A stretch of DNA of 34,689 nt from a virus. Under the pieces are notes generated by a model that was not told the DNA's origin, searched no databases, and saw only the letters and a program-made list of their open reading frames with translations. The position numbers and the translations under genes are program-made. The DNA lies in IMG/VR virus record IMGVR_UViG_3300046777_000855, positions 1 through 34,689 of that record. One strand, 5' to 3'. Positions 4,357-33,695 of this stretch are shown one piece after another. Every line of letters starts with the position of its first letter. The stretch's first letter is position 1.

Positions 4357-4520
4357 AATACATCAACATTATTGGACTTATTTTGTCCACGCTTGCACTT
4401 GGATTTTCGTGCGCATCATTTTTGGTACCCACATTTCACGTTACTGCATGGGAGTGGACTCGTGAGATTTTGACATGGCTTTACTTTTTGTTAGCCACAA
4501 TATATCAATCTCGCAAATGA
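4353..4520 (+). CDS. Small two-helix membrane protein, 55 aa
   Basis: ATG 4353 overlaps the terS stop (ATGA) and its TGA at 4518-4520 overlaps the ATG of the next gene. The product has two hydrophobic stretches (NIIGLILSTLALGFSCASF and LTWLYFLLATIY) separated by a short polar loop with three Trp or Glu-Trp positions. The Cys at ~20 follows a hydrophobic stretch and might be a lipobox-like site, but the second helix argues for a two-pass membrane protein. ATGA coupling on both sides is strong evidence for expression. Confidence 0.75.
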   Translation: MKYINIIGLILSTLALGFSCASFLVPTFHVTAWEWTREILTWLYFLLATIYQSRK

Positions 4521-5563
4521 AGATATTAGCACTTTGGGAAGGTATGAGCGGGGTTGAATACCACCGCCTTTATATCCCGCTGAAACGATTGCAGATTGAC
4601 CACGTGGTTGAGGTGAGTATATCCCAGAACTTCACACGCGATGGACTGCCCGCGCTGAAAGATTATGACCTTGTAATCTTCAATCGCTACATGGGTGAGC
4701 TGCATTACGAGATACTCGAAACCCTTGCCCGATACGGAGTGCCTTACATTGTGGATGTTGACGATTATTGGGTACTGCCAAAAGGGCACCCGACCTACAA
4801 ATGGTTTAGGCTTAATAACGTGAAGCAGGCTATCATTGACGGCATGAAGTACGCAGACGGTGTCACCTGCACGACTGAGGCATTAGCCGCAAAAATACGG
4901 GGAATAAATCCGCACGTTTCAATTCTGCCGAATGCGTTAGACCTGACAGACGAACAATGGTTGCAACCGAAACAGCAGCGGGACGTTATGACCTTCGGGT
5001 GGGTGGGTGGTCTTACACACGCGGACGACATTCAGATTATCAGCGATGCAATAAACGCCATGTGTGACAAGTGGGGTGACAGGGTTAGGTTTGTACTTTG
5101 CGGGTGGATGCCTAACAATTGGATGTGGGATTCTATTCTTTACAGGTTCAATGGTGGCAGCACGACACTACGCCCGCAGGTGGTGGTCAGTCAGGCGCAA
5201 GCCCCGAATGAATACGGCAATTTTTACCGCCTGTTTGACGTGGCATTAGCCCCGCTGGCAGAAACAACATGGAACGGCTGCAAGTCTGAATTAAAGATAG
5301 TGGAGGCGGCAGCGTATGGCCTGCCCGTCATTGCATCTAACGTTTCACCATACACAAACCATGCAGACAACAAGGGCGTTCAGTTGGTAGAAAACAGAAC
5401 CGATGCGTGGTTTAGGGTTATGGATTGGCACATGACCAATGACGTGAAACAATACGGTATTATCAATCAGGTGTATTGTCAGCAGCACCACAACCTTGAA
5501 ACGATAAACGCTAAACGATTGGAATTCTATGCAAATCGCATACAAAAGACCGTTCGTAACTGA
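4517..5563 (+). CDS. Glycosyltransferase, GT-B fold (GT4-like), 348 aa
   Basis: I chose ATG 4517 (MKILALWEGMSGVEYHRL) because it overlaps the preceding stop by 4 bp; the frame extends upstream but into the membrane-protein gene. A middle motif TFGWVGGLTHADDIQ corresponds to the GT-B inter-domain strand. Near the C-terminus NGCKSELKIVEAAAYGLPVIAS matches the E-x7-E nucleotide-sugar motif of family-4 transferases. Donor and acceptor are unknown. It overlaps the terminase large subunit start by 35 bp, so its dose is tied to packaging genes. Confidence 0.85.
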   Translation: MKILALWEGMSGVEYHRLYIPLKRLQIDHVVEVSISQNFTRDGLPALKDYDLVIFNRYMGELHYEILETLARYGVPYIVDVDDYWVLPKGHPTYKWFRLNNVKQAIIDGMKYADGVTCTTEALAAKIRGINPHVSILPNALDLTDEQWLQPKQQRDVMTFGWVGGLTHADDIQIISDAINAMCDKWGDRVRFVLCGWMPNNWMWDSILYRFNGGSTTLRPQVVVSQAQAPNEYGNFYRLFDVALAPLAETTWNGCKSELKIVEAAAYGLPVIASNVSPYTNHADNKGVQLVENRTDAWFRVMDWHMTNDVKQYGIINQVYCQQHHNLETINAKRLEFYANRIQKTVRN

Positions 5564-29887: not shown

Positions 29888-29918
29888 CAAATATAGTGTA
29901 ATAAATTGCACCGAGCAA
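29888..29918 (-). promoter_or_regulatory. Leftward promoter PL3 with spacer palindrome
   Basis: Minus strand: TTG (29918-29916), 20 bp, TATATTTG (29895-29888), a perfect -7 box. The spacer palindrome TGYAA-N4-TTRCA is at 29897-29910. It drives erf and the small genes down to 27593. Confidence 0.75.
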
Positions 29919-30542: not shown

Positions 30543-30573
30543 CAAAGTTATGCAATAGTGTACAAATTTACAA
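30543..30573 (-). promoter_or_regulatory. Leftward promoter inside the replication cluster
   Basis: Minus strand: TTG (30573-30571), 20 bp, TAACTTTG (30550-30543), a perfect consensus. ATG 30537 follows after 5 nt. A related palindrome, TGTACAAATTTACA (30559-30572), covers the -33 side and may be a further operator. No O1/O2 pair is seen here. Confidence 0.7.
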
Positions 30574-31023
30574 CAATGCAGCGGCACGAATTGCGCGGAC
30601 GTTCGTTGTATAGAACTCCATGTTTGCAGCAAGTGACAGCGCAGATTCGGTATCAGGCAGGATATCTATGTCCTTTTCTTCAATCCTGTTGAACCGGATA
30701 ACGCAGTCTTTAACTATTTTGCGGGTATGTTTGTCGAACTTGACAAGGCCGTCAATATTTCCGATGCTATGCAGCACGGTTGTGTGGTCATAAGCACCAC
30801 CAAACATTCTACCCATTGTTTTTAGGCTTACAAACTTGCCCACCTCTTCGTCAATGATAAACCATGCTATCTGCCGCGCTACGCAAATTTCTCGCTTTCG
30901 TGACCTCATACACATGGCAGCGTATGGCACTCCGGTTACATCTTCAACCGCCTGAATGATTCTCATGCACGTTCTTTCGGTGGATGCTGTACACTCTTTT
31001 TGTGTTCTGTCTATTGTTTCCAT
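30568..31023 (-). CDS. DnaA domain IV-like protein, 151 aa
   Basis: Residues ~20-85 match the DnaA DNA-binding domain: RSRKREICVARQIAWFI (helix with basic loop), SLKTMGRMFGG, and AYDHTTVLHSI, the DnaA signature where D-H-T-T-V contacts the DnaA box. No AAA+ Walker motifs are present. Stand-alone DnaA domain IV proteins occur in phages next to replication genes and could bind the phage origin, block host DnaA boxes or act as a regulator. The gene directly follows the primase-helicase. Confidence 0.85.
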   Translation of the reverse strand: METIDRTQKECTASTERTCMRIIQAVEDVTGVPYAAMCMRSRKREICVARQIAWFIIDEEVGKFVSLKTMGRMFGGAYDHTTVLHSIGNIDGLVKFDKHTRKIVKDCVIRFNRIEEKDIDILPDTESALSLAANMEFYTTNVRAIRAAALL

Positions 31024-32654
31024 TATACGTTTGTTTCTATGTAAAGTCCTGTTTGAATATCGTAGTTAAACATCTGCATACCGACCTCGCCCCAGTGGCT
31101 AAACTTCACTTTTTGCACATAAACCTCAACCGTGTTTTTAGCAAAGTTCCTGTAAACGGTTATGCCGTTGTCCGTTTTGTTGTAAAAGTTGGCAGAACCG
31201 GCAATATCGTAAAGTGACGGCACGTTATAAACACCTGCCTCGTTTCGCTGTATCTTTCGCGGGTGGGCAACAAGAAAGCAGTGCAGGTTGTGACGTTCGC
31301 AAAAGTTCACCAGTTTGTCAAGTGACTGGCCGATATACCTTGTTTCGCTGTCTGTGTACTGGTGTTCAAGTTTATTCCATGCGTCAATAACAAACCAATC
31401 AATCCCTTTGCGGTTTTTCAAAAGTGCAACGTGCTGTAATATGCTGTCAAGTGTAAAGTCGTTTTCCGGCTTGACAAAAAAGATACTATCATCCAACAGC
31501 ATCATGGCCTCAAAAATTTCCTCTTGGTTCATCCGGTGCTGTCCGACAAATGGCCGCTGTGTAATCTTTCTGAGTAGCTTAGATATGTGTAGTTCCACCG
31601 GCCTGTTTTCAGGTGAGTAAAACGCGCCTTTCAGGCTATGCCGCTGCAATAGTTTCACCAGCAGGTGGTCGAGAAAGTCAGATTTACCGTGACCGGGTAC
31701 GCCTGTTATCGTTGTAAGGTAGCCTTTGTGAAATTTCAGCAACCTGTCAAATCCCAGCATCCCGGTTTCGTATCCCGGAGGCAAACCATAGTTGTACAGA
31801 TTTTCCACCTCTTGCAGGTAATCTCTGATTGCAAATACACCTGTCATTGGGAACTCAACAAAGTTCCGGCATGCGTCGACAAGCGCAAGGCCACCGTTCT
31901 GCATCAGATACTCGTTAGCATCCTTGCACTCGCCCCATTCAATGTAGTTGCATTTCTCTTTCCCAAACCTGTCTGCAATAGCGTTTCGCAATTCAAGTCC
32001 GGGGCTATCATTGTCAACCGCAATATGTATTTTCTGAACGCTGTCAAACAGCGGCATGAACTTATCAAAGTATTGCAGATTCTTTGCGGCTCCGTTAGGT
32101 ACGCTGATAACATTGTTAATACCTACCTCAATCAGCGACAAAGCATCCATTTCGCCTTCAACTATCCACACTTCATCAGCGTTAATGATGCAGTCAATGT
32201 TATATGGTATCAGTTCGGCATCCTTGAAAAGTTTAAAGTTCTTTCTGCCGTCACGATATTTCACATTCACCAGTTCGCCATTCAAAAAGTAATTAAAACC
32301 GATTACAGCAACTTTTTCATTCACCTGCGGCATAAACTCCGTTTCGTGCGAAATATTCATTTTAAGGCAGGTTTCTGCGCTTATACGCCTACCTTCAAAC
32401 CATTTCAAAACTTTGTCAGGCAGATTTGTGTTGTTTTTCCACTCCGGTCGAACGTACTTTATTTCGTTGGTGCGCTCAATGATTGCACCTTTCCAGTTGC
32501 AGTGGTGGCAGAACCATGTCTTTTTGTCAAGGTTTATAGACAGGCATTTGTCGGTTTTCTTTTTGCGGGTGTGACTGCACTGCGGGCAAATAGTTTGAAC
32601 TTCACCTGCTGTTTTGCCGTGAGGCAGTTCTATGTTGTAGTATGCAAAGTTCAT
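31023..32654 (-). CDS. Bifunctional primase-helicase (T7 gp4-like), 543 aa
   Basis: The N-terminal zinc-binding domain has C23-P-Q-C26 and C49-H-H-C52. A TOPRIM domain follows with VWIVEGEMDALSLIEVG (catalytic E at ~165) and HIAVDNDSPG. The C-terminal helicase has Walker A GVPGHGKSD (~318), a Walker-B-like DWFVIDAWN and SGAN-like loop segments (IAGSANFYNKTDNG). This order is that of T7 gp4. It unwinds DNA and makes primers at the phage fork. No DNA polymerase is encoded, so the host polymerase must be used. Confidence 0.9.
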   Translation of the reverse strand: MNFAYYNIELPHGKTAGEVQTICPQCSHTRKKKTDKCLSINLDKKTWFCHHCNWKGAIIERTNEIKYVRPEWKNNTNLPDKVLKWFEGRRISAETCLKMNISHETEFMPQVNEKVAVIGFNYFLNGELVNVKYRDGRKNFKLFKDAELIPYNIDCIINADEVWIVEGEMDALSLIEVGINNVISVPNGAAKNLQYFDKFMPLFDSVQKIHIAVDNDSPGLELRNAIADRFGKEKCNYIEWGECKDANEYLMQNGGLALVDACRNFVEFPMTGVFAIRDYLQEVENLYNYGLPPGYETGMLGFDRLLKFHKGYLTTITGVPGHGKSDFLDHLLVKLLQRHSLKGAFYSPENRPVELHISKLLRKITQRPFVGQHRMNQEEIFEAMMLLDDSIFFVKPENDFTLDSILQHVALLKNRKGIDWFVIDAWNKLEHQYTDSETRYIGQSLDKLVNFCERHNLHCFLVAHPRKIQRNEAGVYNVPSLYDIAGSANFYNKTDNGITVYRNFAKNTVEVYVQKVKFSHWGEVGMQMFNYDIQTGLYIETNV

Positions 32655-32655
32655 G

Positions 32656-33351
32656 TCAGTAAACCATTATTCTGCGGTGTGGTGGCTGTGATTCGTCTAT
32701 GCACCTGCCAAGTTCATCCATGTACGGCTGTCCGTTTGCCTGCGGCTTTTCTTTTTTCAGCCAGTTACGCGCTGTAAGGTACAGTGATTTATACTCTTTG
32801 TTCCTTTTGTAGTTCTCGATCCTGTCCAGTATATCGTCAACCTGTGCAAGAGAATAACCAGCGGCCACAAGTTCGTCAACTTCATCCTGCGTTATTGACA
32901 AATGACCAAAAGCCCTATATACTTTCTTTTCATTATTATCATTCTCTTCATTCTTGTTAGTGTCCGTCTGCTGTCCGTTTGCTTTACTACTTGGTTTCTT
33001 ACTTGCTTTGTTTTCTGCGTTATCGTCTGCCTGATAGTCTTCGTACTTAACTATTGACAATAAAGTAGTTACGTTGTTTTTTTGCCTTACTATCTGCCCG
33101 TCTGTTTCAAGTATCAAAATAAAGCGTTCTACCTTGCCTCTGCTCCACTTCCATCTGCTGGCCAGCGTTTCAAGGCCATACCCAACCTGACCGCGCTTAA
33201 CAACAACACGGATTCCGCGCTGTATAATGTGACCTTCTTTGTGGTTCGCTATCAGTAATAAGTCAACCCATGCCTGCATCCGCGTAAATGGTTCTGCATG
33301 ATACATAGGGTTGTCCATAATCTTCCGGTGTATCTTTATCCAGCCGCTCAC
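32656..33351 (-). CDS. Replication initiator/helicase-loader-like winged-helix protein, 231 aa
   Basis: The start is GTG 33351 ([20 protein letters not shown]), overlapping the previous TGA. The first ~105 residues form a winged helix ([27 protein letters not shown]... [13 protein letters not shown]) of the type seen at the N-terminus of phage replisome organisers. A low-complexity Lys/Asn/Ser linker (~108-143) leads to a DnaD-like helical C-terminus ([33 protein letters not shown]). It likely brings the primase-helicase to the origin. Confidence 0.8.
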
Positions 33352-33569
33352 AACTGCCTCCGTTTCTTTTCGTATTGCAGGGTCAAAACGTCCGTTGCAA
33401 GGTCTGTTTTTTTCAGGCGGTAAACCTGATAGTTAATCTTCTTTGTGATTTCCTGAAACTCTAAGTTGCCAAGTTTAGCAACAAGGTCATTCTCAATAAT
33501 GACAAGTTCAGCGTCTGTAAGTTTGGAATAATCTTTCAATGTAGTGGAATTTAAAAAATGGGCGGGCAA
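33348..33569 (-). CDS. Hypothetical protein, 73 aa, start uncertain
   Basis: There is no ATG; candidate starts are TTG 33569 ([16 protein letters not shown]), which lies in the 3' strand of the terminator-like stem, and TTG 33539 (63 aa), which lies just after it. The conserved-looking core ([38 protein letters not shown]) is helical. It is GTGA-coupled to the winged-helix gene and probably belongs to the replication module. Expression would depend on read-through or refolding of the structured leader. Confidence 0.6.
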
Positions 33570-33661
33570 GGTACGCCACTACACGACCGCCTGAATGAAG
33601 TTCAGGAACGCCCGCCCATAAGATTTTTGCTGTATGATTTCTCATTTCAGTCGTGTAGTGT
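33553..33661 (-). ncRNA. Structured leader or small RNA with interleaved helices and terminator
   Basis: Starting just after the -7 box, the minus-strand RNA begins CACTACACGAC (33660-33650), which pairs perfectly with GTCGTGTAGTG (33587-33577; 11 bp). Between them lies ATGGGCGGGC (33619-33610), which pairs perfectly with GCCCGCCCAT (33567-33558; 10 bp) beyond the first helix. The two helices are interleaved (pseudoknot order) and enclose a 6-bp hairpin CCTGAA/TTCAGG (33606-33590). The 10-bp stem is followed by TTTTTT, a terminator. It may be an attenuator for the replication genes or a free RNA of about 110 nt. I do not recognise its class. Confidence 0.6.
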
Positions 33662-33665
33662 TTTA

Positions 33666-33695
33666 CAAATATAGTTCTTTTCTGTTAAATGTCAA
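33666..33695 (-). promoter_or_regulatory. Leftward promoter of the structured RNA and replication genes
   Basis: Minus strand: TTG (33695-33693, within TTGAC), 19 bp, TATATTTG (33673-33666), a perfect consensus. The expected start point (about 33659-33662) coincides with the first base of the 11-bp helix at 33660. It lies in the end of the gene at 33685-33885. Confidence 0.75.

Follow-up and report, generated by a model that had tools for sequence, protein, structure and literature searches.

Genome context and the replication operon

What kind of RNA lies between the promoter and the replication genes of this virus, and how could it act on them? The window (the whole stretch of DNA that was analyzed, 34,689 bases) is a viral record with a replication operon on the minus strand and terminase, portal, and tape-measure genes on the opposite strand. 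The operon includes the following genes:

33348..33569, minus strand: small ORF, the first operon gene, with 63 codons from TTG 33539 (likelier) or 73 codons from TTG 33569; shares bases with the GTG start codon of the gene that follows
32656..33351, minus strand: DnaD-like helicase loader (PHROG 2514, E 2.6e-30)
31023..32654, minus strand: TOPRIM/DnaB primase-helicase (Pfam Toprim_2 and DnaB_C; PHROG 239, E 1.6e-98)
30568..31023, minus strand: DnaA C-terminal helix-turn-helix domain protein, same operon (Pfam PF08299, E 6e-15)

The helicase loader does not follow the leader RNA element immediately; the small ORF intervenes. No relative was found for its 73-aa product. In Cellulophaga phage phi10:1, a small gene, a second gene, the primase gene and, farther away, a DnaA-domain gene all run in one direction. 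Elsewhere in the window, a glycosyltransferase gene (4475-5563, plus strand; PHROG 7162, E 1.4e-54) adjoins the terminase gene, and an imperfect tandem repeat of CGCAGCAGCCGACGCAGCATCCC-like units occupies the right end of the contig (34580-34689) within a minus-strand ORF.

Architecture of the leader element

The leader of the operon consists of the following parts:

33666..33695, minus strand: Bacteroidota-type promoter predicted from sequence, with the -7 box TATATTTG at 33666-33673 and a -33-like TTGACA at 33690-33695
33650..33660, minus strand: strand a, CACTACACGAC; part of a 13-bp helix when extended to 33648
33610..33619, minus strand: terminator strand b, ATGGGCGGGC, between a and a'
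33590..33606, minus strand: small hairpin CCTGAA-CTTCA-TTCAGG (arms 33606-33601 and 33595-33590), between b and a'
33577..33587, minus strand: strand a', GTCGTGTAGTG, partner of a; reaches 33589 in the 13-bp form
33558..33567, minus strand: terminator strand b', GCCCGCCCAT, partner of b
33553..33558, minus strand: T6 run of the intrinsic terminator, whose first T doubles as the final base of b'

Read 5' to 3' on the minus strand, the promoter is followed by a, an A-rich linker, b, a', b', the U-run, and then the replication genes. The order a-b-a'-b' is a true pseudoknot order, and a:a' and b:b' have no base in common. The a:a' helix is perfect over 11 bp and extends to 13 bp (33648/33589) counting one G-U pair. 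The interleaved 11-bp and 10-bp helices, with a 6-bp hairpin between them and upstream of T6, are present as first described. The -7 box TATATTTG fits the consensus TAnnTTTG of Bacteroidota promoters (PMC7366714), and the transcript is therefore expected to begin a few nucleotides later, at or just before helix a. Relatives carry TAnnTTTG or TATAATTG at the equivalent promoter place. TATATTTG occurs exactly at just one further site in the window, 29888-29895 (minus strand); over 43 nt the sequence there is 79% similar to that around the promoter of the element, and no pseudoknot follows it.

Folding of the growing transcript, with pseudoknots disallowed, gave a:a' as the best fold at approximately 80-100 nt and a switch to the terminator hairpin at 103 nt, when b' is complete. 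The nested fold of the element has a z-score of -3.3. An 8-nt match of a' to CCACTACA (33547-33540), located 3' of the terminator, was considered as an alternative pairing and rejected, being near chance level and having no conserved counterpart.

The two helices had been called very improbable by chance. This holds for the pair: among 40,000 dinucleotide shuffles of a 221-nt segment, interleaved perfect stems summing to at least 21 bp appeared in only 2. Single stems are commoner than had been claimed, with at least 11 bp in 233 and at least 10 bp in 823 of the 40,000 shuffles. The first reading had also matched the element to no nameable RNA class, and the Rfam scan that it proposed agrees: the Rfam 15 covariance models gave 0 matches at the gathering cutoff across the window and 31 relative loci, and a scan at permissive E-values yielded nothing credible for the window element and its relatives.

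Structural relatives in other phages

Among related loci, fetched via loader and primase, blastn gave no nucleotide homologue of the window element, and a search of the phage collection gave none either. Covariation of the two helices, a check suggested at first reading, consequently had to be sought in other members of the class, where compensatory changes do occur; exact-element homologues contributed none. When scanned by structure alone, other phages proved to have this strand order, equally far from the primase. Family A comprised 33 distinct sequences initially and then 65 model matches, one per locus. Family B comprises 31 strong loci by model; several weak type B matches were dropped after inspection.

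Family A begins with a 5' hairpin (UCGG..CAGG/CCUG..CCGA), the loop of which pairs with part of the terminator interior. A second long-range pairing reaches the loop of a CGGY/RCCG hairpin, and an AGUA/GAA internal loop resembles a sarcin-ricin motif. In family B, the 5' hairpin loop (7-8 nt) makes a kissing contact with a second loop, that of a 4-bp hairpin which the terminator encloses. Double changes occur in 25 of 41 pairs in family A, a result repeated on 36 distinct rows, and in 18 of 26 pairs in family B. Restricted to the interleaved helices, both-side changes are found in 4/7 and 6/6 pairs (family A) and 5/8 pairs (family B). In the family A alignment 94.6% of cells are paired, compared with 33-45% when slid. 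Both families have conserved internal-loop nucleotides, and no competing conserved stem, i.e., no alternative antiterminator pairing against b:b', was seen in either. The earlier proposal of a structured RNA acting as an attenuator, with a first helix formed before the terminator, thus stands in its structural part, since relatives have this topology at the head of the corresponding operon, with compensatory changes in the pairs, and no Rfam family fits; attenuation itself is predicted from sequence.

Some loci differ from this picture. One type A element (L148:202-339, minus strand) lies on the strand opposite the primase match and about 3.7 kb from it, unlike other family A loci. A further type of leader, possibly another leader RNA, is found in Bacteroides prophages (L162 and L164), where GCAACAAT/ATTGTTGC-type inverted repeats and a short ORF lie approximately 100-250 nt 5' of the loader.

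Distribution of kissing-loop terminators

Upstream of relatives of a phage helicase gene, 19 distinct interleaved elements were detected, compared with 2.6 per shuffled set. A detector for the kissing layout, in which a 5' hairpin loop kisses a hairpin nested in the terminator, returned 56 distinct elements in 5.8 Mb, compared with 1 in shuffles. These 56 elements fall into about 25 sequence families, the last two of which are weak. Cognate halves are complementary over at least 7 nt in 48 of the 56, compared with 9.6% when halves are swapped between elements. In the commonest form of the class, a is a 5' hairpin loop and a' is the loop of a second hairpin, enclosed by the terminator. The window element, which has neither hairpin, is an H-type pseudoknot variant; it has the order promoter-a-b-a'-b'-U-run at the head of an operon, and what places it, putatively, in the class is its topology, its position in the operon, and the leader ORF described below.

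Several cultivated phages carry such elements. A kissing element precedes the small gene of the primase operon in Cellulophaga phages phi10:1, phi19:1, and Nekkels_1 and in Flavobacterium phage lillamy9-5; in FCV-1 it precedes other genes. The kissing loops are GTGAGACG in lillamy9-5, GTGAGAAG in morran9-1, GTGGAACG in snusmum9-1, and GTAGAGAG in FCV-1, with an exact complement in each. These 8-nt loops of Flavobacterium phages vary on both sides, and elements within one genome have differing loops. Upstream of the primase operon, phi19:1 (L446) and Nekkels_1 (L447) have an identical promoter region followed by unrelated RNA elements, suggesting that the element behaves like an exchangeable cassette. 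Nekkels_1 apparently has two kissing contacts, ATTGGAA/TTCCAAT and GTCTAAC/GTTAGAC. Elements found in named phages with a loosened promoter (score 36-40) were mostly background and were kept only with flanking hairpins. In morran9-1 (L450:118-261) and snusmum9-1 (L451:86-181), CDSs annotated as 'hypothetical protein' lie over the RNA element and may be leader ORFs or spurious calls.

Judged by eye from the first codons, some B-type elements head putative homing endonuclease genes. By the same inspection, kissing leaders at L315:152-244 (minus strand), L038:4563, and L274:1597 precede ORFs resembling NUMOD4/HNH and GIY-YIG homing endonucleases. Each of these leaders has a distinct loop sequence, which would fit a mobile gene bringing along an orthogonal copy.

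Chromosomal copies were sought in sampled Bacteroidota genomes with the type A and B models, and nothing real was found in 395 genomes (class of a Lutibacter MAG), although strict filters make this weak evidence. A 42-bit chromosomal match (L361) proved to be a gene end with a plain terminator, and three matches of 25-27 bits also look like plain terminators.

A reading frame through the terminator

A stop-free frame through the terminator was missed in the first-pass annotation:

33508..33645, minus strand: leader ORF of 45 codons plus stop; begins in the A-rich linker, stays open through b, a', b', and the U-run, and stops at 33510-33508

In the window this ORF overlaps the next ORF. In family A, an ATGA in the A-rich linker opens a stop-free frame through the terminator and U-run in all 33 distinct elements. 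Across the 33 sequences, with the window included in the count, the ATG frame contains 0 stops, compared with 78 and 74 in the other two frames. The open frame is not fixed to the RNA sequence: relative to the fixed AGUA motif it is one frame in 21 of the family A sequences, another in 11, and the third in 1, and it shifts with the ATG. The encoded peptide is unconserved and variable. The frame joins the next gene in 31/33 and overlaps it in 2/33. Two elements that belong to neither family, L048:7058 and L058:892, also have stop-free leader frames, and the freshwater relatives, like the window, have a stop-free frame of variable peptide through the terminator.

The leader ORF is absent from family B and from most helicase-linked elements, which rules out translation as the general trigger; given its absence from family B, the leader frame is an overlay on a basic design. 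A reading frame that looks open in many family B elements was rejected, because its start is inconsistent and stops occur in other members; it is taken as an accident of conserved RNA sequence.

Ribosomes close behind the polymerase suppress intrinsic terminators, and terminators in the first ~100 nt of an ORF are suppressed less readily because coupling is not yet established (PMC4824070). Attenuation of pyrBI relies on ribosome-polymerase coupling (PMC5021804). By analogy, the attenuator proposed for the window is probably coupled to translation.

Proposed mechanism

We consider it probable that the element is a cis-acting leader RNA working as a transcription attenuator, in which a long-range pairing would form before the terminator and tune read-through into the replication genes. 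The evidence for the structure is good; termination, read-through, and the direction of control are what we infer. Since b is always flanked by a and a', with b' transcribed last, a:a' can close a ring around b before there is any b'. The a:a' helix would form while the polymerase is still transcribing b', and b would be held in the ring closed by a:a' when b' emerges. With the polymerase still on the 3' end, the winding of b' round b through the ring would be hindered. The ring could thereby delay or tune completion of the terminator helix and set the share of polymerases that reach the loader, the primase, and the rest of the operon. As to sign, the long-range pairing could be a timer or antiterminator or, in the opposite sense, a brace of the terminator. 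In the window and family A, a ribosome that loads early in the linker would sit over b and block termination, following a pyrBI-like logic.

Four other explanations were weighed. The terminated transcript could be a stable small RNA that acts in trans on a host or phage target; the 5' pairing would protect one of its ends and the terminator the other, and the downstream genes would be served by leakage or other promoters. Its compact tertiary architecture, together with the second long-range pairing and the sarcin-ricin-like AGUA/GAA loop of family A, would suit such a role, as would the elements that head other genes, apparently homing endonucleases. We nevertheless regard it as rather unlikely. 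Wherever inspected, and in many unrelated families, the element is directly 5' of the first gene of a transcription unit, a constant position in mRNA leaders that argues for cis action. Searches of six phage genomes revealed no complementary targets beyond chance, the longest matches being within the shuffled range, and an independent small RNA gene would have no need for a stop-free frame through itself.

The terminated RNA, which contains both a and a', might instead act in trans by pairing with nascent leaders of its own type, disrupting their a:a', and altering termination. Copy-number control or superinfection exclusion with type-specific loops would result, i.e., pT181/ColE1 logic with no counter-transcript. 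The location on replication genes, loops that diverge fast yet stay exactly complementary, loops that differ among the elements of one genome, and the retained promoter with a replaced RNA cassette in phi19:1 and Nekkels_1 are all compatible with such self-recognition. Fast covarying loops are, however, expected of any structured RNA, and lytic phages perhaps need no copy control; this explanation seems unlikely. We regard as doubtful a wider generalization, in which a 5' segment pairing inside its own terminator would be a topological timer and a general mode of phage gene control, and each terminated RNA, bearing both complementary strands, would act in trans on sister leaders for copy-number control and superinfection exclusion, with specificity changed by cassette swap.

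Alternatively, the leader pseudoknot could be a recognition site for a phage or host protein, such as an autoregulating replication protein or an antitermination factor, as in T4 gene 32 and ribosomal-protein leaders. A pseudoknotted leader on replication genes and the conserved internal-loop nucleotides of families A and B would fit, yet no motif is common to the families, and structures are completely different among phages whose primases are 72-76% identical, which makes a conserved protein site hard to see; we judge it improbable. Finally, an ordinary terminator with a coincidental repeat is hardly credible: long single stems are not so rare in a GC-rich segment (the 233 shuffles with an 11-bp stem) and the exact sequence has no homologue, but the interleaved pair arose in only 2 of 40,000 shuffles and the layout recurs with covariation at the orthologous place in relatives.

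Significance of the element

To our knowledge, little is known about the control of replication genes in Bacteroidota phages. The present analysis provides an RNA element that is concrete and recurs, and for which the start, the stop, and the pairing are predicted. Because it is present in cultivated phages (Cellulophaga phi10:1, phi19:1, and Nekkels_1; the Flavobacterium lillamy and mumin groups; FCV-1), it is directly testable. The topology is retained in many Bacteroidota phages while nearly all letters change, which hides it from sequence-based searches for RNA families; the element looks like a widespread, unnamed on/off valve for replication genes. In one lineage, the RNA structure and a stop-free, peptide-variable frame were apparently selected together, a possible natural case of translation-coupled attenuation in the phylum. 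The architecture, in which a kissing loop or pseudoknot links the 5' end to a promoter-proximal terminator, appears to be new as an RNA class; the open-access literature searched did not describe a kissing-loop terminator class.

Comparison with known systems

The put RNA of phage HK022 is a structured RNA just 3' of the early promoters that makes the polymerase resistant to later terminators, whereas the terminator here belongs to the element itself. The CI RNA of phage P4 is a small phage RNA produced by early termination of a transcript that heads replication genes. Unlike the P4 CI and P1 c4 immunity RNAs, the present elements have no Rfam C4 match and no trans target in the phage genome. 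The element does not fit a type III toxin-antitoxin RNA, which would have a toxin gene immediately 3' of it: the downstream genes are the small ORF, the loader, and the primase.

The leader of IncI-alpha plasmids acts on repZ translation together with an antisense RNA, and its pseudoknot is not known to contain an intrinsic terminator. The likeness of repY-repZ (ColIb-P9) to the present elements is that the leader controlling a replication gene combines a loop-based pseudoknot with a leader peptide (titles cited in PMC10724649). The pT181 and pIP501 attenuators share with our elements a terminator in a replication-gene leader whose folding is set by long-range RNA pairing (PMC5703833). They need a counter-transcript and an alternative preterminator fold, whereas here one RNA carries both complementary strands, and the search for antisense promoters gave no convincing candidate; antisense TAnnTTTG, counted as motif matches, occurs 11 times near and 4 times far across 41 elements. 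A preterminator pairing of the pT181/pIP501 type that excludes the terminator was likewise not found, a:a' and b:b' being disjoint and no competing conserved stem being seen in families A and B.

In pyrBI of E. coli, termination depends on where the ribosome is, with UTP-sensitive pausing of the polymerase. We know of no pseudoknot or kissing loop reported for it, and the class also differs from it in that family B and most other families have no leader ORF. What the window and family A have in common with pyrBI is a promoter-proximal intrinsic terminator inside a leader ORF (pyrL in pyrBI) that reaches the next gene.
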